The notes under the pieces are model-generated. The model did no database searches, was not told the origin of the DNA, and saw only the letters and a program-made list of their open reading frames with translations. A stretch of DNA of 64,000 nucleotides from Alphaproteobacteria bacterium (GTDB lineage: Bacteria > Pseudomonadota > Alphaproteobacteria > Rickettsiales > UBA8987). The DNA lies in NCBI GenBank assembly GCA_030429625.1, contig JAUIFA010000005.1, positions 1-64,000 on the forward strand, written 5' to 3'. Both the position numbers and the translations under genes were made by a program. Of the stretch, positions 5,756 to 15,548 are shown piece by piece; the stretch's first letter is position 1; each line of letters begins with the position of its first letter.

Positions 5756-8700
5756 TTACTGTTGTTCAACGGCAGCATTGAGTTGAGAATATTTATCCAC
5801 CGAATCGTAAATTTTTATAAAATCAGGTAAGTCTTTTAAAGCAATGTTTCCTTTAAATACCACATCATCCTGCTTTGGTACAAAGCGTTTATCCAATATT
5901 TTTAGCACACGGATGGTAGTCTGGTTTATCGTAACATCCCTGAAATCTCTTTGCAGTTCACTAAGTTTTCTTTTTGAGTCTCTTCCAACATCGCTTTCCA
6001 GGTCTTCCATTTGCATTGCATAGGCAATCGCTAGACGTACGATAAGATCTCTGTCCGCATCAGAGAGATATTCTTTTTCACGTAACGCATCAACTTTTGG
6101 AGCAAGCAAAGTGGCAATACTTGCCCACTCTTTGCTTGGCCACACAGCGTATTCTAAGATAAAATCTTCTATTTCATCCAACTGTATGGTGTTAGAAAAA
6201 TCTTCAAAGTTAAGAGTCTTGACATCATCGGCTACGAAGTTGAAAACTTTTAACAGTTCGGGGTCAATAATTTTTTCAGAAAAATCCTGCCGCATTTGTT
6301 TTATTTTATCAAATTCTTCTTGCATACGATAGGACACAAGAAGTTTTATCACCTGTTGGGTTTCCATTTCTGTTAGATCTACCCGACCTTCTTCACGCAA
6401 TTGCGGCAAGCGCGGCTCTACAATATCCATAACCCCAAACCAGTTCTTCTTTTTCCAAAATGTATTTAGCCTTATATTTTGTGCGTCCGGAGAAAAATCA
6501 TTGTACAACAATTCAAATACTTTTTCGGCTTCTCCCAGTTTCTGATAGGCCAAGGCTTCCTGATAACGCAATGCGTTGGCAACAGACGGACGAATTTCAC
6601 TGTCGTCTTTTACGCTATTTATTGCCTTAATCGCTTCGACAGGCTTCTTATTCTCAAGATAGAGTTTGGCCAATTTTAAGGTGAGAAGATGCTTTAAATC
6701 ACCGGTAGTTCTAAAACGTATCTGGTGAGAAATGATGTTTGCTGCATTGTCCAGAAGGTCTGCATTTATAAAATGCTCAGCAAGTTGTTGGGTAATACGA
6801 TCCCCAATATCCCCAACCGGAGTTAACTCTCTGAATGAAAAATACAAGGATAAAGCATCAAACGGGTTAAGCTTATAAGCCTCGCCCGCATCAAATAACT
6901 CAACAAAAGTTTGTTTCATTTTTCCAGCAATGAAAAGAGATTCTTTTGTGTTGGGAAAGTTTGTTACCAAAGTCTGCCATGCGGTAAGACCTTTCATGTA
7001 TTCTTTTTCTTTGATGTAAAGTTGACCAATAAGTTTCAGAACATCAAGCTCAAGATTATCACCCCTCCAGATCGAGCCGACAATATTAAAGTCTTCGATT
7101 GCTTCAGTAGGGGAGATCACCCCGTTGATCAACCGTAGCTTTGCCAGTTCATAGATAGCGCGGGCGCGATTATAGCGATCTTCAATCTCATGAGAAAGAG
7201 GTTCCCATAGGCTGATGGCTTTATCAATTTCATCGGCCTGTGCAGCAATAAGTCCTCGTATAAACTTGGTATCATTTTCTAAACCTTCAGGGATACCATT
7301 AAACGAAATCGACTCAAGAATTCCATTTGCTTCATCAAGCAGGTTCTGCTTGACCATAAATTGAGCAAATAGCAGCCCAATATTATACCTTAAATCCTCT
7401 GGGTATTTCTGCATGAACCGCTCATAGCTGACCACAAAATCAATAGGAAGATCACTTTCTATCTTCTTTCGTGCCAAGAGAGCATGCTGGAACATACTCA
7501 TCCATTTCCACAGACTAATCTCTTCAAAACTCTCATGACCTTTAACTTCCGCAGCCAGAGAGCTAAAATCTTCTTCAGCCTCCCTGTATCGTCCTATCAG
7601 ATATTTACAGGCGGCTATCATAAGGTCAACCTCCTGCATTTGTTCATAAATTGGGTCAATAATCTTTATTTCTCTTGCCATGCCAAGTGCTTCTTCATAC
7701 ATTTTTAGGGAGAAATAATATTTTGCAATTTCTACCCGTTTGTATGTTTTTGTTTCCTTGTCAGCCTTGAGAAGATTTTTATATAATTCACGTCTTTTAT
7801 CAATAAAGCCCATTTCGGAGATTCTTTCCAAATCTTTTACCGTATAGCCATCTGAGGTGATAACTCTTTGCCCTTTTTTCTTTTTAGCTGTATGGGCTTT
7901 TTCTGCTCCATCAGGTGTTTCTTCATTGGATGCTTCTTGTTCCTCCGATTCTTCTTCTTCATAAGCCGAACCATCGGCAAGTTTTTCCAAGCCAAGAGGA
8001 AGGTAATTAAACGGCAGAACAGTTTCGGTAACCAGAACAATTTTTCGCTGTCTCAATGGCTTAGCTTCTACTGTTTCTTCTGTCCCAGCTAGGAAAAGAT
8101 CCTGTGAAATATAAAGTTGGTTTGAGCTGTATATTTCCAACCCCTCTTTATGTGTTTTGTATAAAACGCCATCGGACTTTTGAATAACCACAATCCCCTG
8201 AAGGGTGGGGGGGAGTTTAAAGTCAATAAAGTCTCTTTCCACAATAACCGCAACAGAGGGTTGATACATTGGAGCAATATGTAATGTATCACCCACTTCA
8301 GAATCAATGATGGACAGAACTTCTGAGGGGTTCTTAGCGGTCAAGAAAACCTTGGGTCCTTGTTTGGATGGGCCGATATTAACCTGAACAGGATTTTCAA
8401 TAATTTCTGCACCTTCCATTGAGGCCAAAGTTTCTTTCTTAATATCCATTTCCCATCGAATGCCAGCCAGCTTTACATTAATTTGTAATCTTTCTTTGGT
8501 TGGGTGGAGGCCAGAGAGTATGTAATTATCTTTTACTTTAAACTTAAGTACTGTAAAATTTTCTCCCTCGACCTCCTGAACCTCTGAGAAATAGGTCATA
8601 GTTGGCATGTCTTCAAAATCAAGGACAGTTGATTTGTTAAAAATAACCCACACATAATTGCCACGAACAAAAACCGAAGAGGCGACAGGTTTTGTCCATG

Positions 8701-9817
8701 GAAAAACGATTCTCACCGCACCAGCTGTTTCCAATTTTTCTTCCACTGGAATTAATATTCTTGAACGTCTTTCAGCTTCTTGGGCAGCGAGAAGTGCTTG
8801 TTCCCGACGTTTTTCCTCCTCCAACTGCTTTAAAGTAATGCCTTTTCTCTTTAATAATTCCTGATTTTTTAAATCTTCTTTTGCTTTAATAATTCGTGTT
8901 TCCCTTGACTCACGGAGCTTCTGTAATTTTTGTTGTAGCTCCATTTTTGCGATTTCAATTTCTTCTTGTTTTTTTGCCTCAAGCTCTCGAATTCTTTTCT
9001 GAGCCTCAGCCTCCGGATTGATCGGTTTTTTGCGTGGCGCACCTTCTGTTGTAAAGAAGGACTCTAAGAAAGACGGCTTATTTTTAGGAAAAACTCTTAA
9101 CCAGATATTTTCTATAGCTGATTTCTTCTTTTCTTTTTCCAGAGTTTGTTTCAGCTTTTCTATTTCACTATTAATTTCAGCAATCTCAAACGAAGGCTTG
9201 TTGACCGGTTTTGGTGCACTCTTTAAAAGTTGTAACTTTTTTTCTTCCGGCGAAAGTTTGGGTTCAATTACATCAAAACCAACAAAATTCTTACCATAGA
9301 ATTTACGCACCCGTGCATTGTCTTGTGTTAATAGTAGGTGGACAATTTTGTTGTTGTCTTTGTCTATTGAAGCTGCGGCAATATGTTTCTGTATTGGAAT
9401 AATAATTTCATCAAGATTGATTGAAATGTCTTTATCAAATGTGATCGACAGCAGGTCGCCCTTACGTACCACTTTGTAATCATTATCCTCCTTGAATTTA
9501 AAAATTAAACGGCCAAAACGATTATGAGGAAAGCCTTTTGCCAAGATTACATTGCTTGTCGTACTGTTGGGGTTATTAGTATTGTATAATTTTAAATTTT
9601 CCAGAGCTTTATTAATTGCTGCCTTGGCTTTTTCTGGGCTTGGGCTATTGGCAATTGCTGGGACTTTGTTTGTTTGCGCTTGTCCGCTAGGTTTTTTCTC
9701 CTGATTTTGTGCATAGAGGGTCTGGACATTAAAACTCACCAAACAGCACAAAACCAGCAGCAATGCAGAAAGCCGCTTGCCAAATCTCACGCTGTTTTTA
9801 AGAAGATTAAATATCAT
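5756..9817 (-). CDS. Large exported TPR/coiled-coil protein of the motility operon
   Basis: I do not recognise a named gene. The 1353-aa product has a signal peptide or N-terminal anchor (hydrophobic about residues 16-36, ending QTLYAQ). A beta-rich AMIN-like segment follows (about 90-200, with FGRLIFKF). Next is a long charged coiled coil (about 210-350, rich in Glu, Lys, Arg), then a second similar beta-rich segment (about 360-450, AGAVRIVFPW), an acidic linker (about 625-650), and TPR-like helical pairs over roughly 680-1110. It should act in the periplasm or span the inner membrane. It sits 12 bases after a motB-like gene. Inference: a motor- or stator-associated scaffold, in the manner of other periplasmic flagellar accessory proteins. 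A cell-envelope role unrelated to motility is the alternative. Confidence 0.75.
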   Translation of the reverse strand: MIFNLLKNSVRFGKRLSALLLVLCCLVSFNVQTLYAQNQEKKPSGQAQTNKVPAIANSPSPEKAKAAINKALENLKLYNTNNPNSTTSNVILAKGFPHNRFGRLIFKFKEDNDYKVVRKGDLLSITFDKDISINLDEIIIPIQKHIAAASIDKDNNKIVHLLLTQDNARVRKFYGKNFVGFDVIEPKLSPEEKKLQLLKSAPKPVNKPSFEIAEINSEIEKLKQTLEKEKKKSAIENIWLRVFPKNKPSFLESFFTTEGAPRKKPINPEAEAQKRIRELEAKKQEEIEIAKMELQQKLQKLRESRETRIIKAKEDLKNQELLKRKGITLKQLEEEKRREQALLAAQEAERRSRILIPVEEKLETAGAVRIVFPWTKPVASSVFVRGNYVWVIFNKSTVLDFEDMPTMTYFSEVQEVEGENFTVLKFKVKDNYILSGLHPTKERLQINVKLAGIRWEMDIKKETLASMEGAEIIENPVQVNIGPSKQGPKVFLTAKNPSEVLSIIDSEVGDTLHIAPMYQPSVAVIVERDFIDFKLPPTLQGIVVIQKSDGVLYKTHKEGLEIYSSNQLYISQDLFLAGTEETVEAKPLRQRKIVLVTETVLPFNYLPLGLEKLADGSAYEEEESEEQEASNEETPDGAEKAHTAKKKKGQRVITSDGYTVKDLERISEMGFIDKRRELYKNLLKADKETKTYKRVEIAKYYFSLKMYEEALGMAREIKIIDPIYEQMQEVDLMIAACKYLIGRYREAEEDFSSLAAEVKGHESFEEISLWKWMSMFQHALLARKKIESDLPIDFVVSYERFMQKYPEDLRYNIGLLFAQFMVKQNLLDEANGILESISFNGIPEGLENDTKFIRGLIAAQADEIDKAISLWEPLSHEIEDRYNRARAIYELAKLRLINGVISPTEAIEDFNIVGSIWRGDNLELDVLKLIGQLYIKEKEYMKGLTAWQTLVTNFPNTKESLFIAGKMKQTFVELFDAGEAYKLNPFDALSLYFSFRELTPVGDIGDRITQQLAEHFINADLLDNAANIISHQIRFRTTGDLKHLLTLKLAKLYLENKKPVEAIKAINSVKDDSEIRPSVANALRYQEALAYQKLGEAEKVFELLYNDFSPDAQNIRLNTFWKKKNWFGVMDIVEPRLPQLREEGRVDLTEMETQQVIKLLVSYRMQEEFDKIKQMRQDFSEKIIDPELLKVFNFVADDVKTLNFEDFSNTIQLDEIEDFILEYAVWPSKEWASIATLLAPKVDALREKEYLSDADRDLIVRLAIAYAMQMEDLESDVGRDSKRKLSELQRDFRDVTINQTTIRVLKILDKRFVPKQDDVVFKGNIALKDLPDFIKIYDSVDKYSQLNAAVEQQ

Positions 9818-9829
9818 CTATGTCCTTGT

Positions 9830-10558
9830 TTATAAAGATAAATCTCCGGCCTTAAATTCTCTTACAATAATATCAATGCTTTTGTTCAAACGTTGTTTTA
9901 TCTCCGGTGCTATGTCAATAAACTCTTCAAAGTTTGACCCAATCCTTCCATAAGGGGTGATTTTATATTGATAACCATTATTTCTCAAGTATTTGGATAA
10001 AACAATTGCCCGACCGATGGCCAGATTCCAATAAGACGGATACATATTAGTGACAATATGGTCTTCAGAAGCGTTACCATAGATATCAATATGATTTTTT
10101 AATGAATATAATGCGTTAGCAATTACGTCGAGAAGAGGAATAATTTCAGCCCGTATTTCAACCGAATCTGTTTTAAAGACAGAGTCATACGGTATGGACA
10201 AGATGATACGATCATCCAGTCGACTGATTGTTAATAATTCTTTTGTTTCAGGCAAATAAGCAATATTACTACGCAATATGGTGACCAAATAATCAATATC
10301 CGTGGCCTTGTTGTCGTCCAGTCTTTTTATTTCAAACTCTTTGGTAGGAATAGTACTTTGTGTTTGAGAATTTGGATTTAAGTTAGAGATAAGAGAATGT
10401 TTAATGGTGTGCCATTTTTCTAGATCTATTTCAGAAAGCGAATATATGAGAACAAAAAATGTCAAAACCAATGATAGTAAATCTGAAAAAGTCATCATCC
10501 ATCTGTCAGATTGATGGTCTTCCTCTTCAATCATCATATTTTCCAGATTATTGTCCAT
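9830..10558 (-). CDS. motB: MotB-family stator protein with OmpA-like domain
   Basis: The start is placed at the ATG at 10558, preceded by a GGGGG ribosome site, giving 242 aa. MotB anchors the proton-driven stator to peptidoglycan. The single membrane helix follows WMMTFSDLLSLVLTFF; the Asp in TFSD aligns with the proton-binding Asp32 of E. coli MotB. The C-terminal OmpA-like domain shows the peptidoglycan-binding pattern (YPSYWNLAIGRAIVLSKYL, then NKSIDIIV). It overlaps the upstream motB-like gene by 11 bases. No motA is in the window, so its partner is encoded elsewhere. Confidence 0.88.
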   Translation of the reverse strand: MDNNLENMMIEEEDHQSDRWMMTFSDLLSLVLTFFVLIYSLSEIDLEKWHTIKHSLISNLNPNSQTQSTIPTKEFEIKRLDDNKATDIDYLVTILRSNIAYLPETKELLTISRLDDRIILSIPYDSVFKTDSVEIRAEIIPLLDVIANALYSLKNHIDIYGNASEDHIVTNMYPSYWNLAIGRAIVLSKYLRNNGYQYKITPYGRIGSNFEEFIDIAPEIKQRLNKSIDIIVREFKAGDLSL

Positions 10559-11291
10559 CACCGCCCCCACTTTCTTCTGAAGCAACATCCGGATAGGCCG
10601 CTTCCTCTATGTTAAAACGCACATAAAAACGCATAACCAGTGATTGATCTAATGCACTGTCTATGCCGACAAGCATGGATTTATTACTGACCCCATTACG
10701 GATTAGACTGTTTGCTAAATTGCTGACCCGCGCCAATGACAGATTATCCTCTGTATCATACTCACTGCTCTGAGATTCAGACGGAGAGATGGAGATTTCA
10801 ACGTCAATCCGCAAGCCCTCTTTAATGTTTGCAAGTTCGGCTGCCAAAGACTGAATAAAGTTCTGATGCTTGCGTTGAATGGAGTCCTTGTTTTTATTAA
10901 AGAAATCACTCACAGGGATGCTAATTTGGGTCACAGGCCCATCTTCAATAACAGTGGCCTGGATTAAAGTAACAGAATCACGTGCTAGATTTCCAATTCT
11001 TTTAGAATATTCAATAATAGATGGATCATTTCCCGACAGGTTGATGTTATCAATTTTTATGTCGGACGTGCGTTCGTCCTGCTTAAGCTTAAATGTGCTT
11101 CTAACGCCATCTAAAATTTCATCATTGTCCTTCTTTTTAATAGAAGAAATTGAGTTTAACAAAATAAAAAAAGCAAGAATAACAAGATATAAGGCAACAA
11201 AGAGTGACGCCGAACTCATTTTTTTTTCATGGACGTTCGAAGGATTTCCTCCGGAAGAATCTGCGTTAAAATTATAGCTATCCGTCTGCAT
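10548..11291 (-). CDS. MotB-like paralogue lacking the proton-binding Asp
   Basis: The ATG at 11291 gives 247 aa; an in-frame TTG at 11300 is less likely. The architecture is MotB-like: a short cytoplasmic tail, one membrane helix (SLFVALYLVILAFFILL), then a periplasmic region ending in a weakly OmpA-like domain (LSLARVSNLANSLIRNGV). Aligning the helix on AFF to MotB puts Ala where the essential Asp should be, and there is no acidic residue in the helix. It therefore should not conduct protons alone. Inference: a structural partner or regulator of the adjacent MotB. It is the first gene of the pair, following cheZ after about 100 bases. Confidence 0.75.
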   Translation of the reverse strand: MQTDSYNFNADSSGGNPSNVHEKKMSSASLFVALYLVILAFFILLNSISSIKKKDNDEILDGVRSTFKLKQDERTSDIKIDNINLSGNDPSIIEYSKRIGNLARDSVTLIQATVIEDGPVTQISIPVSDFFNKNKDSIQRKHQNFIQSLAAELANIKEGLRIDVEISISPSESQSSEYDTEDNLSLARVSNLANSLIRNGVSNKSMLVGIDSALDQSLVMRFYVRFNIEEAAYPDVASEESGGGDGQ

Positions 11292-11391: not shown

Positions 11392-12012
11392 TTAATTATC
11401 GGCAAATAATTTATCGATTTCATCTTGGGTTGGTACTTCATGTTGTGGGCCGTTCATAAGGTCATCATCAGAGGCTATATGTTCTTTTTCTTTATATTCA
11501 ATTTCAACCTTGCCTCGGATGGCTTCAAGCAGAACATGTATGGCTGTATCAACTTCAGATAAGGTTGCCATAACCTTGCTTACCCTTTGTCCGGTGATGT
11601 CTTGGAAATTGCACGCCTCAAATATTTTAGTAATTTCATCAAAGATAGCCGATGTTTTTTCCTCTGGTAGGTCAAGATTTACCACGTCCCTTTGAATTTT
11701 TTCTACGGAGTCCAAAATAGCATGCGTGGCATCCTCAGCAGCTTTGACCACCGCATCAAGTTCCATATGTGCGTCAGGAAATTTTTCACTGGAAACAACG
11801 CCCGGGTGTGGTTGGGATAACTCAACTTTGATGGTGTCAATTTTCTCTGCAATCTGTTCAATACCTTCATAGACCTCATTATGGTGCTTGCCACGCAGAT
11901 TGCTAAATAAAGCGTCAATATCATCAATTTGTAGACCATCACCCTTTTCTTTGACCAATGCGTTAAGAGACTTTAAGAAATCCTGCGCAAGTTTTTTACC
12001 AGTATTTGGCAT
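11392..12012 (-). CDS. cheZ: CheZ-type CheY-P phosphatase
   Basis: This 206-aa protein matches the CheZ family, which dephosphorylates CheY-P and so ends the motor signal. The catalytic motif NFQDITGQ is present with Asp138 and Gln142, equal to Asp143 and Gln147 of E. coli CheZ. Long amphipathic helices around it (about 80-170) fit the CheZ four-helix dimer. The C-terminus VPTQDEIDKLFADN corresponds to the CheY-binding tail of CheZ, and closely resembles the FliM N-terminal CheY-docking peptide encoded upstream. It lies 23 bases after cheY. Confidence 0.88.
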   Translation of the reverse strand: MPNTGKKLAQDFLKSLNALVKEKGDGLQIDDIDALFSNLRGKHHNEVYEGIEQIAEKIDTIKVELSQPHPGVVSSEKFPDAHMELDAVVKAAEDATHAILDSVEKIQRDVVNLDLPEEKTSAIFDEITKIFEACNFQDITGQRVSKVMATLSEVDTAIHVLLEAIRGKVEIEYKEKEHIASDDDLMNGPQHEVPTQDEIDKLFADN

Positions 12013-12035: not shown

Positions 12036-12422
12036 TTAGAAGTTTCCAATAACCGCAGAGAGTTTTGTTTTTAAAGTGGCCGCGTTAAAAGGTTTAACGA
12101 TGTAATTATTCACACCAGCATTTTTAGCGACAATCACATTATCCACTTTGGTTTCTGCCGTAACCATTATAAACGGTAATTTTGCGGTTTTTTCTGTCGC
12201 GCGGATGGTTTTGAGCAGTTCAAGCCCGGACATAGGCTCCATATTCCAGTCGGATATGATTAATTTATACTCTTTGTCCTCCATTTTTGCTAACGCCATT
12301 TCACCGTCATTGGCTTCATCAATATTGCCAAACCCAAGTTGCTCCAGAAGCCCCCTAATAATCCTACGCATCGTGTTATAATCATCTACCACCAGAATAG
12401 GCATCTGTTTGTCAACGGACAT
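12036..12422 (-). CDS. cheY: Chemotaxis response regulator CheY
   Basis: This is a single receiver domain of 128 aa. The acidic pair is Asp13-Asp14, the phosphoacceptor is Asp58 (ISDWNMEPMSG), and the switch residues Thr88, Tyr107 and Lys110 match E. coli CheY. Phosphorylated CheY binds FliM and changes motor rotation. No histidine kinase or receptor gene is in the window. The gene sits between a motE-like gene and cheZ, so response regulator, phosphatase and the FliM target are all encoded in one strand run. Confidence 0.93.
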   Translation of the reverse strand: MSVDKQMPILVVDDYNTMRRIIRGLLEQLGFGNIDEANDGEMALAKMEDKEYKLIISDWNMEPMSGLELLKTIRATEKTAKLPFIMVTAETKVDNVIVAKNAGVNNYIVKPFNAATLKTKLSAVIGNF

Positions 12423-12543: not shown

Positions 12544-13200
12544 TTATTCTTTTGGAGGAACAAGCTTACCGTGTTTTGCAAAAGTAACGGTTAGCTCTTT
12601 TGCAAGAATTGGATCCATTTTTGCTAAGATAAGGGCAAGCCTGTCTTCTTTCATTTTTTCAGAAATGGCCAGAAGTGAGTCAATGTCCAGCTCAGAAAAT
12701 ATTTTTGCAGCTGCTTTGGGCTTCATATTCTCGTATATCTTAACCAAACTTTGAATTTTTTTGTTCTCTTTGGCATTATATTCTCGAAGACTTTCTTCAA
12801 CTTGTTGCTTCAATTCCCGCAGTTCACCAATTTTATGGTCTATTTTTTCTTGGGTAATCTTAAGAATGTTTTCTTTTATTTCGAGATCTTTTTCCCATTG
12901 CTCAAGTTCTTCACGACGCTTGGAAAGTCGCTTCAGAATGTCAAGTTCCGTGGCAGTATATTCAATACGCTGTTCGCTGAGAATTCTCTTTTTATTTTCA
13001 TCCATTTGTTCTTCGGTAGCATCATCTCCAGCGCCTGCAGCATCTCCCTCATTTAGGGTAGCCTCTTCTTCCTGTGCGTATGCGGATGAAATAAGTGAGA
13101 AACTTGAAGCCAAGTCGTATTTGGTAACGATTTCAGTTATTTTCAACACCAGCAAAATTAAACTGGCTATGATAATAATAGAAAGAAGACTAAAGCGCAT
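12544..13200 (-). CDS. MotE-like protein with MgtE_N-type domain
   Basis: The protein (218 aa) has an N-terminal membrane helix or signal (about residues 4-20), a Glu-rich linker, and a long coiled coil (about 75-150). It ends in an MgtE N-type domain (KIYENMKPKAAAKIFSELD and LILAKMDPILAKEL). The combination is typical of alphaproteobacterial MotE-family proteins encoded in flagellar operons; in Sinorhizobium MotE is a periplasmic chaperone for MotC. The exact role here is inferred. It abuts the DUF6468 gene with no intervening base. Confidence 0.75.
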   Translation of the reverse strand: MRFSLLSIIIIASLILLVLKITEIVTKYDLASSFSLISSAYAQEEEATLNEGDAAGAGDDATEEQMDENKKRILSEQRIEYTATELDILKRLSKRREELEQWEKDLEIKENILKITQEKIDHKIGELRELKQQVEESLREYNAKENKKIQSLVKIYENMKPKAAAKIFSELDIDSLLAISEKMKEDRLALILAKMDPILAKELTVTFAKHGKLVPPKE

Positions 13201-13947
13201 CTAATCCCCCTGAGAAGCAATGAGTGTCTGAGCAAGCTTACGTTTATCAAAAGGGTTTGATGTTATTTTATTGTCGGCACCAGCTTTAGAACTTTCAGCC
13301 TGTTGGGGCTGCTGCATTTGTGATTTTCCTTCTTGCAGTAAAGAAGGGTTTTGTGCTTGAGCTTTTCGAACCGCGATTTTTGCCAAGACATCATCCAGCG
13401 CCTCTTTTTTAGACGGAGGAACTTCTTCCGTGGCTGTTTGTGGTTGTGGCTTTTCATTCCCTAATGGTGGATTGGGATGATTGTTTGTTGTGCTTTGAGA
13501 TGAGCTTTGTTGAGAGAATTTCTGAACTTCTGTTGGATTTTCAGAGGCTTCAGCTTGTTTGTATAAAGGCTGTTGTTCAGAATGCGGTTCGGATCTTTTT
13601 ACCACAGGGGGGCGTGCTGTTACGGCTCTTGATGCCCCAATCTGCCTTTCAAGTACGTCGGCTACGTGCTCTCCCTTGTCCATCAAAAAAGACAGATCAT
13701 TAGCAAGAAAGCGTGCCTTCTTAATATTTTCATTAAGGGTCTGGTCGGTTTCTTCACCAAGGGTTTTTAGTTGGCTGACATTGTCCTCTGCCCGTAGAAT
13801 GGCATTGTTAAAATCACCAATAAATTTGTTAAAATCGTCCTTACCTTCATGCAGAAACGTAATACGGCGACTAAGTTTCCAGCAATAAATGACCGTAAGA
13901 AACAGTAATGCGGCAATCAGACAATCAAGTAATACAGAGAAGCTCAT
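13201..13947 (-). CDS. DUF6468-family membrane protein of the flagellar operon
   Basis: The product (248 aa) has an N-terminal membrane helix (about residues 5-23), then a helical segment (about 30-95), then a long low-complexity Gln/Pro/Ser-rich linker (about 115-230). The N-terminal part resembles DUF6468, a domain of unknown function found next to fliM in alphaproteobacteria. The start overlaps the fliM stop as ATGA, so the two are translationally coupled. The function is unknown; the location suggests a motor-associated inner-membrane protein. Confidence 0.7.
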   Translation of the reverse strand: MSFSVLLDCLIAALLFLTVIYCWKLSRRITFLHEGKDDFNKFIGDFNNAILRAEDNVSQLKTLGEETDQTLNENIKKARFLANDLSFLMDKGEHVADVLERQIGASRAVTARPPVVKRSEPHSEQQPLYKQAEASENPTEVQKFSQQSSSQSTTNNHPNPPLGNEKPQPQTATEEVPPSKKEALDDVLAKIAVRKAQAQNPSLLQEGKSQMQQPQQAESSKAGADNKITSNPFDKRKLAQTLIASQGD

Positions 13948-14972
13948 ATAATCTTTTTCACATCATCATGGTTCATAGAGGTTAACTTAATAGCTAGTTT
14001 TTTCCCTGATGCTCCAAATTTTCCCAACATAAGAGGGATACTCTTGCAAGTCATCGTTATATTATCACTAGGGGTTTTATTCATAACAATTGTTGAACCA
14101 ACTTGCAAGTTTGCAAGCTCTTTTAGTGTAATATATTTATCATCAAGCTTTGCTTCAACGGTAACAGTTGATTCTTTAATTTCGTCACTCAAATGATTTT
14201 CCCACGAGGCATCAGATCCAAATGATTCACCACTAAACATCTGTAATAACAAGTCTTTTACAGGCTCTAAGGTGGCGTATGGGAAGATGATGTCGATTTT
14301 ACCGCCGCGATCGTCCATTTCTACCCGTAGGGCAATTAGGATTACCGCACTTTCTGGACGGGTGATGGTAGCAAATCTTGGATTGGTTTCTAGCCGCTCA
14401 TGCCTAAATGTGGCAGGGGTCAGTGGGTTAAAAGCAATTTCCATATCATCAAGGATTAACTTTGTAAGCGTTTTAACAATGTCCTGTTCAATAATGGTAA
14501 AGGGACGACCTTCTATTTTTACATTTTTCTTTTGTTTTCCTCCGCCAAGTAGAATGTCTACCATGGCATAAGTCAACGAGCTGTCTATGGTTACAATGCC
14601 ATAATTTTCCCATTCTACGGCCTGAAAAATTTGCAGCAGGGCTGGCAGAGGTACGGAGTTTAAATAATCTTCAAACCGCATAGAACTTATTGAGTCGATG
14701 CCGATGTCAACATTTTCATTGGTTAAATTGCGTAAGCCGCTGGATAACGTACGGATGAAGCGGTCAAAAACCACCTCAAGCATAGGAAGTCTTTCATAAT
14801 TTTCTTGCGATTTATCAAGTAAAGCCTGCACACCAGTAGTTGGGCCAAGATTGCCTGCATCAAACCCCAAAAGGCTGTCAATTTCATCCTGACTTAATGT
14901 ACTGGCATCACCACCCATGGCGGCAGCCATGTCTGCTTCCGCGTCAATATTTTCTTCTACTTCATCCGCCAT
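13944..14972 (-). CDS. fliM: Flagellar motor switch protein FliM
   Basis: FliM (342 aa, normal length) forms the middle of the C-ring and is the docking site for CheY-P. The N-terminal CheY-binding motif LSQDEIDSLLG is at about residues 27-37. The CheC-like middle domain (about 60-240) includes the family segments LVDILLGGG and TRPESAVILIALRVEM. The C-terminal SpoA/FliN-like domain follows (about 260-342). It is 12 bases after fliL and overlaps the DUF6468 gene by 4 bases. fliG and fliN are not in the window. Confidence 0.95.
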   Translation of the reverse strand: MADEVEENIDAEADMAAAMGGDASTLSQDEIDSLLGFDAGNLGPTTGVQALLDKSQENYERLPMLEVVFDRFIRTLSSGLRNLTNENVDIGIDSISSMRFEDYLNSVPLPALLQIFQAVEWENYGIVTIDSSLTYAMVDILLGGGKQKKNVKIEGRPFTIIEQDIVKTLTKLILDDMEIAFNPLTPATFRHERLETNPRFATITRPESAVILIALRVEMDDRGGKIDIIFPYATLEPVKDLLLQMFSGESFGSDASWENHLSDEIKESTVTVEAKLDDKYITLKELANLQVGSTIVMNKTPSDNITMTCKSIPLMLGKFGASGKKLAIKLTSMNHDDVKKII

Positions 14973-14984
14973 AGATTAAACACA

Positions 14985-15548
14985 TTATTGTACTATAATT
15001 TCCTTAAATAGAATATCAGTTACTTCATCGGGTTCAAGGGTCTTGTTAATGCGTAACAAGAGCTCCTCTCTTAGCCTGTGTAATGCTGCTGAGCCTTGGA
15101 GATCCGTATTACGTAACTCACGCAAATAGATTTGGAAAGTATCGCGAATACGCGGCATTTTTGATTCCACAACAGTTTTTGTCGCCAAATTGGGTAGCTC
15201 CAATGTTACTACCATTTTTAAGAAACTTACCTGTTTGCCCGGGTTGTTCAGGTTGACAATAAATTCTTCCAGATCATAATACTGGATTTTAGGGGCGTTA
15301 AGAGCCTTTTCTTCTTCACTTTGTTCAGAACCACCGCCCTCTAATATACCACTAAAATACACACCGGCACCACCGCCGCCAAGAAGCAATATGACAATCA
15401 GAAGGATAATAAGAAGTTTTTTTGTGTTGCCTTTCTTTTTCTTTTTTTTCTTCTTTTTACCACCTTCACCCTCTTCATCATCCTCTTCGTCTTCTTCCAG
15501 ATCTTCGTCTTCCTCAACTTCTTCTATTTCTTCTTCTTTATCGGCCAT
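14985..15548 (-). CDS. fliL: Flagellar basal body protein FliL
   Basis: FliL (187 aa) is a single-pass inner-membrane protein that surrounds the stator and supports torque. The N-terminus is extremely acidic (about residues 3-27, runs of Glu and Asp), then comes a run of Lys before the membrane helix (about 47-67). The periplasmic FliL domain follows, with the motif YYDLEEFIVNLNNPG. The acidic plus poly-Lys cytoplasmic tail is longer and more extreme than in enterobacterial FliL. A GGGGT ribosome site precedes the ATG. It is the first gene of the minus-strand motility run. Confidence 0.92.
   Translation of the reverse strand: MADKEEEIEEVEEDEDLEEDEEDDEEGEGGKKKKKKKKKGNTKKLLIILLIVILLLGGGGAGVYFSGILEGGGSEQSEEEKALNAPKIQYYDLEEFIVNLNNPGKQVSFLKMVVTLELPNLATKTVVESKMPRIRDTFQIYLRELRNTDLQGSAALHRLREELLLRINKTLEPDEVTDILFKEIIVQ

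Follow-up and report, generated by a model that had tools for sequence, protein, structure and literature searches.

Two unlike neighbouring MotB copies, one without the ion-binding Asp, suggest a flagellar motor core of two unequal halves in Alphaproteobacteria

In the flagellar stators described in the accessible text of PMC9389320, the two MotB chains are identical and each bears an Asp. The 5:2 motor model given there lets the two sites, one per chain, alternate; the motor advances 36 degrees per step and needs ten ions for a full turn. What, then, is the role of a MotB-like protein that has lost this Asp and is encoded immediately beside one that has kept it? Such a pair, here called A and B, lies in the window (the whole stretch of alphaproteobacterial DNA that was analysed, 64,000 nucleotides), where it forms part of the following cluster:

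5756..9817, minus strand: periplasmic AMIN-like/TPR protein, 1353 aa, downstream of B, a proposed scaffold
9830..10588, minus strand: B, MotB/PomB/MotS-like protein with the Asp, from its first ATG
9830-10558, minus strand: B from its second possible ATG start
10548..11291, minus strand: A, MotB paralogue without the ion-binding Asp, ATG start, 247 aa
10548-11300, minus strand: A as a longer open reading frame from a TTG, 250 aa
11166..11219, minus strand: transmembrane helix core of A, SLFVALYLVILAFFILLN, with Ala at the Asp position (approximate bounds)
11392..12012, minus strand: cheZ-like gene
12036..12422, minus strand: cheY-like gene
12544..13200, minus strand: MotE-like protein with an MgtE_N-like C-terminal part
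13201..13947, minus strand: DUF6468 protein
13944..14972, minus strand: fliM (profile match at 14247-14801)
14985..15548, minus strand: fliL-like gene, named from its sequence, with homologues at the same place in relatives

Read along the minus strand, the order is fliL, fliM, DUF6468, MotE-like, cheY, cheZ, A, B and the gene of the 1353-aa protein; some of these names were read from the sequences. The MotE-like protein has a weak match to the NCBIfam flagellar collar family FlbB (28 bits for a cut-off of 110, E 1.6e-6). An earlier note on this DNA gave the overlap of the two motB-like genes as 11 bases, which holds for the second start of B (10558); from the first ATG, the overlap is 41 bases. 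All three ATG starts, one of A and two of B, were checked in the sequence.

As a single sequence, A stays below the Pfam cut-offs for MotB_plug (19.5 of 24) and OmpA (21.5 of 27.2), and B scores 49.7 bits against MotB_plug, above the cut-off of 24, and 22.1 of 27.2 against OmpA, below it. Comparison of the A and B profiles with hhalign gave a probability of 99.3 and an E value of 2e-20 over 190 columns, covering the helix and the periplasmic domain, and a profile of 13 A proteins found the solved MotB and PomB chains of the PDB at E values of 2.9e-13 and 9.2e-13, helix included. For the fold of A, we aligned 67 of the 78 named A proteins (those of the named loci described below) with that of the window; of these 68 proteins, 66 have a MotB_plug match at E 0.01. 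The AlphaFold model of A (mean pLDDT 77.6) consists of one long helix and an OmpA-like domain, and its periplasmic fold, mainly residues 86-227, aligns to PomB (3wpw) with a Z-score of 14.3 and to MotS (9ljl) with one of 14.0 (VIA-align). The model agrees with the layout of a single helix and an OmpA-like domain noticed earlier. Descent and fold make A a MotB, one in which the ion site is missing; because Ala stands at the Asp position while homology and fold both agree with MotB, we treat A as a MotB homologue and do not file it as an ion-binding stator subunit.

How widely is the pair held? Among 55 relatives, 14 genomes matched A, counting the window's own and one (G050) in which the match is an ordinary MotB. 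Of 289 genomes sampled from the class, the A profile matches 143 at E 0.001, many of these matches being ordinary MotB proteins, and 79 of the 289 hold the A-B pair; the 79 include G189, counted on adjacent matches only, G306, with broken frames, and G146, with the pair split over contigs. FliM was found in 168 of the 289 class genomes and in 78 of the 79 with the pair. A and B lie on one strand in 74 of the 75 class loci that have both, with an overlap of exactly 4 bases in 39 of the 75. Separated copies are both kept in G029, where they are on two contigs, and in G167, where they are on opposite strands; in G034, a draft 80% complete, A is present and no B was found. Eleven of 60 loci were left out: six with other MotB types and no A (L106, L107, L108, L110, L116, L138), a canonical MotB (L135), a B at a contig edge (L113), the broken frames of G306 (L111), a locus with no match (L137) and a repeat of an A already counted (L134). 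L048 and L136 come from a single genome divided between contigs; L133 contributes a B with its partner A on a different contig.

A further set of named loci, the best 80 of 448 confirmed, has A upstream of B on the same strand in 78 cases, never more than 264 bases apart; in the remaining two, the start of B lies no more than 62 bases from the edge of its contig. Thalassospira, Terasakiella, Tistrella, Kiloniella, Sneathiella and Aestuariispira are among these best 80, as are metagenome bins called Micavibrio and Emcibacter, and a genus missing from the list carries no meaning. Homologues of the window's neighbours recur in the 80 named loci, many of which are cut by contig ends: AMIN/TPR in 70, MotE-like in 67, DUF6468 in 63, fliM in 60, fliL in 54, cheZ in 48 and cheY in 44. 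In a tree of 121 chosen proteins, built by a quick search with the Asp column left out and with many long branches, the class A rows fall on one side of a branch with a support of 100 and the B rows on one side of another with a support of 95. Judged from these sequences, A and B are two old clades.

The helix alignment sets VALYLVILAFF of A against SDLLSLVLTFF of B, with the Ala of A opposite the Asp of B. The latter would correspond to Asp32 of E. coli, as had been proposed, according to the MotB_plug match and to eight ordinary MotB proteins with Asp in the same column. Removal of repeats by the last 150 residues left 158 A and 159 B proteins. Of the distinct A rows, 157 span the helix; at the Asp position they have Ser (91), Ala (30) or Gly (30) and, more rarely, Asp (4), Pro (1) or Asn (1), and the Asp is kept in 158 of the 158 alignable B rows. 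We also looked for an acidic residue elsewhere in the helix of A, a finding that the earlier note had said would speak against its reading: by sequence, 153 of the 157 A rows contain neither Asp nor Glu in any of the 18 helix columns, the exceptions being the four Asp rows. The acid-free helix, which was first seen in the window alone, is therefore the rule in A proteins. Its conservation comes close to that of the B helix, with a mean entropy of 1.34 bits (1.09 in B), and an AFF motif is common to both; the periplasmic parts have mean entropies of 3.02 bits in A and 2.51 bits in B. This combination of a conserved helix and a variable periplasmic part is as expected of a helix that is packed in a MotA ring, rather than of a mere membrane anchor.

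The four A proteins that do bear the Asp are L018, L090 (which is the same as L205), L096 and L102. Match scores show that they combine B-type helices with A-type periplasmic domains: in L102, the A and B models give the helix 15.8 and 47.6 bits, and the periplasmic part 68.4 and 20.9 bits, respectively. On the 121-protein tree, these proteins require four changes. The simplest account is that the helix of B was copied into A in four lineages, likely by gene conversion; that all four kept an ancestral state is a less simple alternative. Under either history, a B-type helix can stand in the place of that of A. Because these four A proteins bear an Asp, a single ion site per stator would be common and not required.

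Which MotA could accommodate the pair? A MotB_plug search of the window's genome gave three places, namely B, A (below the cut-off) and, next to a MotA on contig C8, a canonical MotB, and a MotA_ExbB search gave four, namely the C8 MotA, a second MotA on contig C6 and two TolQ/ExbB-like proteins. The second MotA is of the PomA type and lies in a fliF-fliG-fliH-fliN-motA cluster, with no MotB seen within 7 kb around it. The canonical MotB was considered as its partner and ruled out, the genome having a separate motA-motB pair on C8; since C8 has this pair of its own, the C6 MotA is the free one, and the A-B pair is its obvious partner. Across the class, a second MotA of at least 150 bits is found in 76 of the 79 pair genomes and in 15 of the 210 others (Fisher p 3e-50) and, within the FliM genomes, in 76 of 78 with the pair and 12 of 90 without (p 5e-32), both tests ignoring kinship. 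Three drafts, G102, G157 and G159, have the pair without a second MotA at 150 bits, and two others, G090 and G288, have a strong second-MotA match without the pair.

We next consider the periplasmic side, for which the set of peptidoglycan-binding residues (Gly, Asp, Leu, Arg) was taken from the available part of PMC3080404, the second Arg giving no column in our count. In 45 A rows, Gly is kept in 18, Asp in 3, Leu in 23 and Arg in 35, and A of the window has Ser, Glu, Leu and Arg at these positions and so lacks the full set. The wall-binding Asp is kept in 26 of 44 B rows; in the window, B is itself degenerate (GNAS for GHTD), the genome's ordinary MotB has Ser at the Asp position, and some other ordinary MotB and PomB proteins also lack this Asp. 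The proposal that A sets peptidoglycan contact thus fits poorly in this class, on what is a soft test, given that B and ordinary MotB proteins vary at the same positions. With that reservation, we set aside A as a wall anchor in this class, its motif being largely lost.

Since the motif of A is mostly lost and B of the window is degenerate too, anchoring may rest on the AMIN/TPR neighbour. The window's protein itself has TPR matches. An alignment of 40 of its 70 relatives with it (41 members) has AMIN-like matches in 26 and TPR_2 matches in 21, so that the family of 5756-9817 shows the combination of AMIN and TPR domains beside stator genes that marks MotK-like proteins. In the model of the Terasakiella member (mean pLDDT 83.4), beta regions lead into a helical superhelix, and its top Foldseek match is 9hmf_K, a chain from the flagellar scaffold of C. 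jejuni (E 5.7e-9), with low TM-scores of 0.15 and 0.21 and with generic TPR proteins close behind. Weak matches of the AMIN/TPR protein to plant receptor kinases among PDB sequences were taken as chance.

A similar arrangement exists outside the class, elsewhere in the phylum in a class of its own. Of 249 genomes of the phylum that were searched, 41 matched, 37 of them from outside the window's class, and loci were fetched from 32 of these 37. In 22 of the 32 (families f181 and f200), a motA gene is followed by an A-like and a B-like gene, A' and B', and then by fliL, fliM or both; a single motA was seen at these loci:

L223, L224, L226-L229, L234-L249: motA-A'-B' loci

No Asp-less pair was seen in the other ten of the 32 (L225, L230-L233, L250-L254). 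Two of these, L225 and L253, have two MotB/PomB genes in tandem, both with the Asp, which may represent an earlier stage of such a pair. At the 22 loci, the Asp position is Glu (19) or Gln (3) in A' and Asp (22) in B'. The wall-binding Asp of the OmpA motif is Asp in all 22 A' and is Asp (5), Asn (12) or Ser (5) in B'; an Asn before the Trp is present in 22 of 22 A' and in none of the B', and both proteins retain the motif's Gly, Leu and Arg. In 17 of the 22 loci, the Asp and the full wall motif thus do not occur together on either chain. At most loci, where one MotA gene adjoins the pair, B' would provide the ion site and A' the better wall motif, a division that is suggestive only, because single PomB and ordinary MotB proteins also vary at the wall motif. 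It is nonetheless a counter-case to the poor wall motif of A, the Asp-less copy A' being here the one with the better motif. In the tree, A' and A together form one side of a branch with a support of 86.

Taken together, two unlike neighbouring MotB copies, one of them without the ion residue, suggest a motor core of two unequal halves. We think it probable that A and B form a heterodimeric MotB core, in a stator of composition MotA5:A1:B1 in place of MotA5:MotB2, with one ion site and not two; the heterodimer and its stoichiometry are our inference from pairing, helix conservation and co-occurrence. In such a stator, the second, PomA-type MotA would form the ring and the A-B heterodimer its axle. 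Because only B has the ion-binding Asp, the ion would be bound there alone, at one site per stator, and the helix of A would act as an uncharged filler in the second place, packed against B and the ring. The OmpA-like domains of A and B would pair in the periplasm, and the AMIN/TPR neighbour would probably help to hold the stator unit. A one-site cycle of this kind would use one ion per 72 degrees. The idea of a non-conducting structural partner, put forward in the earlier note, agrees well with the acid-free conserved helix and with the steady company of an Asp-bearing MotB; our reading, drawn from sequence comparison, of A as one half of a MotB dimer inside the MotA ring would be more specific than a separate placement factor.

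Several other explanations deserve to be weighed against the heterodimer. A could form a non-conducting complex of its own, such as a homodimer that stays outside the MotA ring, and with it position B2 stators at the motor or keep them there, which develops the placement idea of the earlier note; it has the membrane helix and OmpA-like domain for this, and accessory proteins with OmpA-like domains occur in other motors. However, the conserved part of A is its helix, with the AFF motif as in B, and not the periplasmic domain, and its wall-binding residues are mostly lost, so that we find this account unlikely. A might instead be an assembly or gating factor that keeps a MotA-B complex inactive by capping B and departs once the complex has docked. 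Translational coupling of A and B would suit such a role, as would the conservation of the helix and of the following plug region in Pfam MotB_plug; the helix exchanges and the whole MotB-like periplasmic fold of A would be left unexplained, which makes this quite improbable.

Homodimers are also compatible with the observations if the second MotA serves two stators, with B2 as the driver and A2 as an idle or braking unit that sets the number of docked drivers. We judge this very improbable, in view of the 17 out-of-class loci in which neither chain combines the Asp with the full wall motif and of a strict 1:1 gene pairing that would offer no way to vary the ratio. That A conducts as well, through Ser or another residue, with ion sites on both chains, would draw on Ser being the commonest residue at the position and on the Glu of most A' proteins; since 60 of the 157 A rows have Ala or Gly there and the helix offers no acid elsewhere, it is scarcely plausible. 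Finally, A is highly divergent (median A-A identity of 21%) and has lost known functional residues, as a decaying copy without function might. Intact, paired reading frames of A and B are nevertheless present in 74 class loci where the genes adjoin and in 78 named loci, and broken frames were seen in one genome only (G306), where B is broken too; such conservation across the class rules decay out, and we give it next to no chance.

A broader statement can tentatively be made, to which we give somewhat less than even weight: much of the Alphaproteobacteria, together with a second lineage outside the class, would build MotA5 round an obligate MotB heterodimer in which one Asp drives each stator, the second lineage having its ion site and its better wall anchor on different chains. 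Compared with MotA5:MotB2 and PomA5:PomB2, the ring and B-type proteins are homologous, B has the Asp helix and OmpA-like domain, and A has the same fold; the difference is that the two B-type proteins are unlike and that one has no ion site. An Asp-less MotB partner was not found described in the open literature, most subscription papers being outside the search. The nearest described case, as far as the consulted text of PMC9389320 goes, is AglR-AglQ-AglS of Myxococcus gliding, with one MotA-like and two MotB-like proteins, for which that text states that the pairing of AglQ and AglS in one motor is unknown. Unlike A and B, AglQ and AglS are both predicted to have the Asp, and the system is non-flagellar and of the ExbD/TolR type (PMC3169522, in the part available).

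For the neighbouring genes, the closest likeness is the Fla2 system of Cereibacter sphaeroides, where, in the available text of PMC10954123, an AMIN and TPR protein, MotK, and MotE are encoded beside the stator genes and MotK is needed for rotation and binds MotE and MotB2. The AMIN-like/TPR and MotE-like proteins of the window resemble these by domain layout and position, and the text on Fla2 names one MotB2 and no Asp-less partner. PflA and PflB of Campylobacter jejuni, described in the accessible part of PMC12222027 as a beta-domain and TPR superhelix that scaffold stators, are likened to the Terasakiella model by the Foldseek fold match only, with its low TM-scores.

The 5:2 rotary motor models rest on two equivalent Asp-bearing MotB chains, as the available text of PMC9389320 presents them. 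A natural one-site stator, if it exists, would show whether two sites are needed; it would break with the alternation between two sites that 5:2 models assume, predict half the ions per turn with 72-degree or limping steps, and answer for MotB the question raised by AglQ and AglS, that of two MotB-like proteins sharing one motor. The idea is practical to test, since the genes are present in the culturable genera Thalassospira, Terasakiella and Sneathiella.

In a second motor family, contig C5 of the window's genome, G000 (L009:2964-3838), carries an ExbB-like gene followed by two ExbD-like genes, one reading PLIDMVFLL, with the Asp, and the other PLINVVFLL, with Asn, a mismatch of the same kind as that between A and B.
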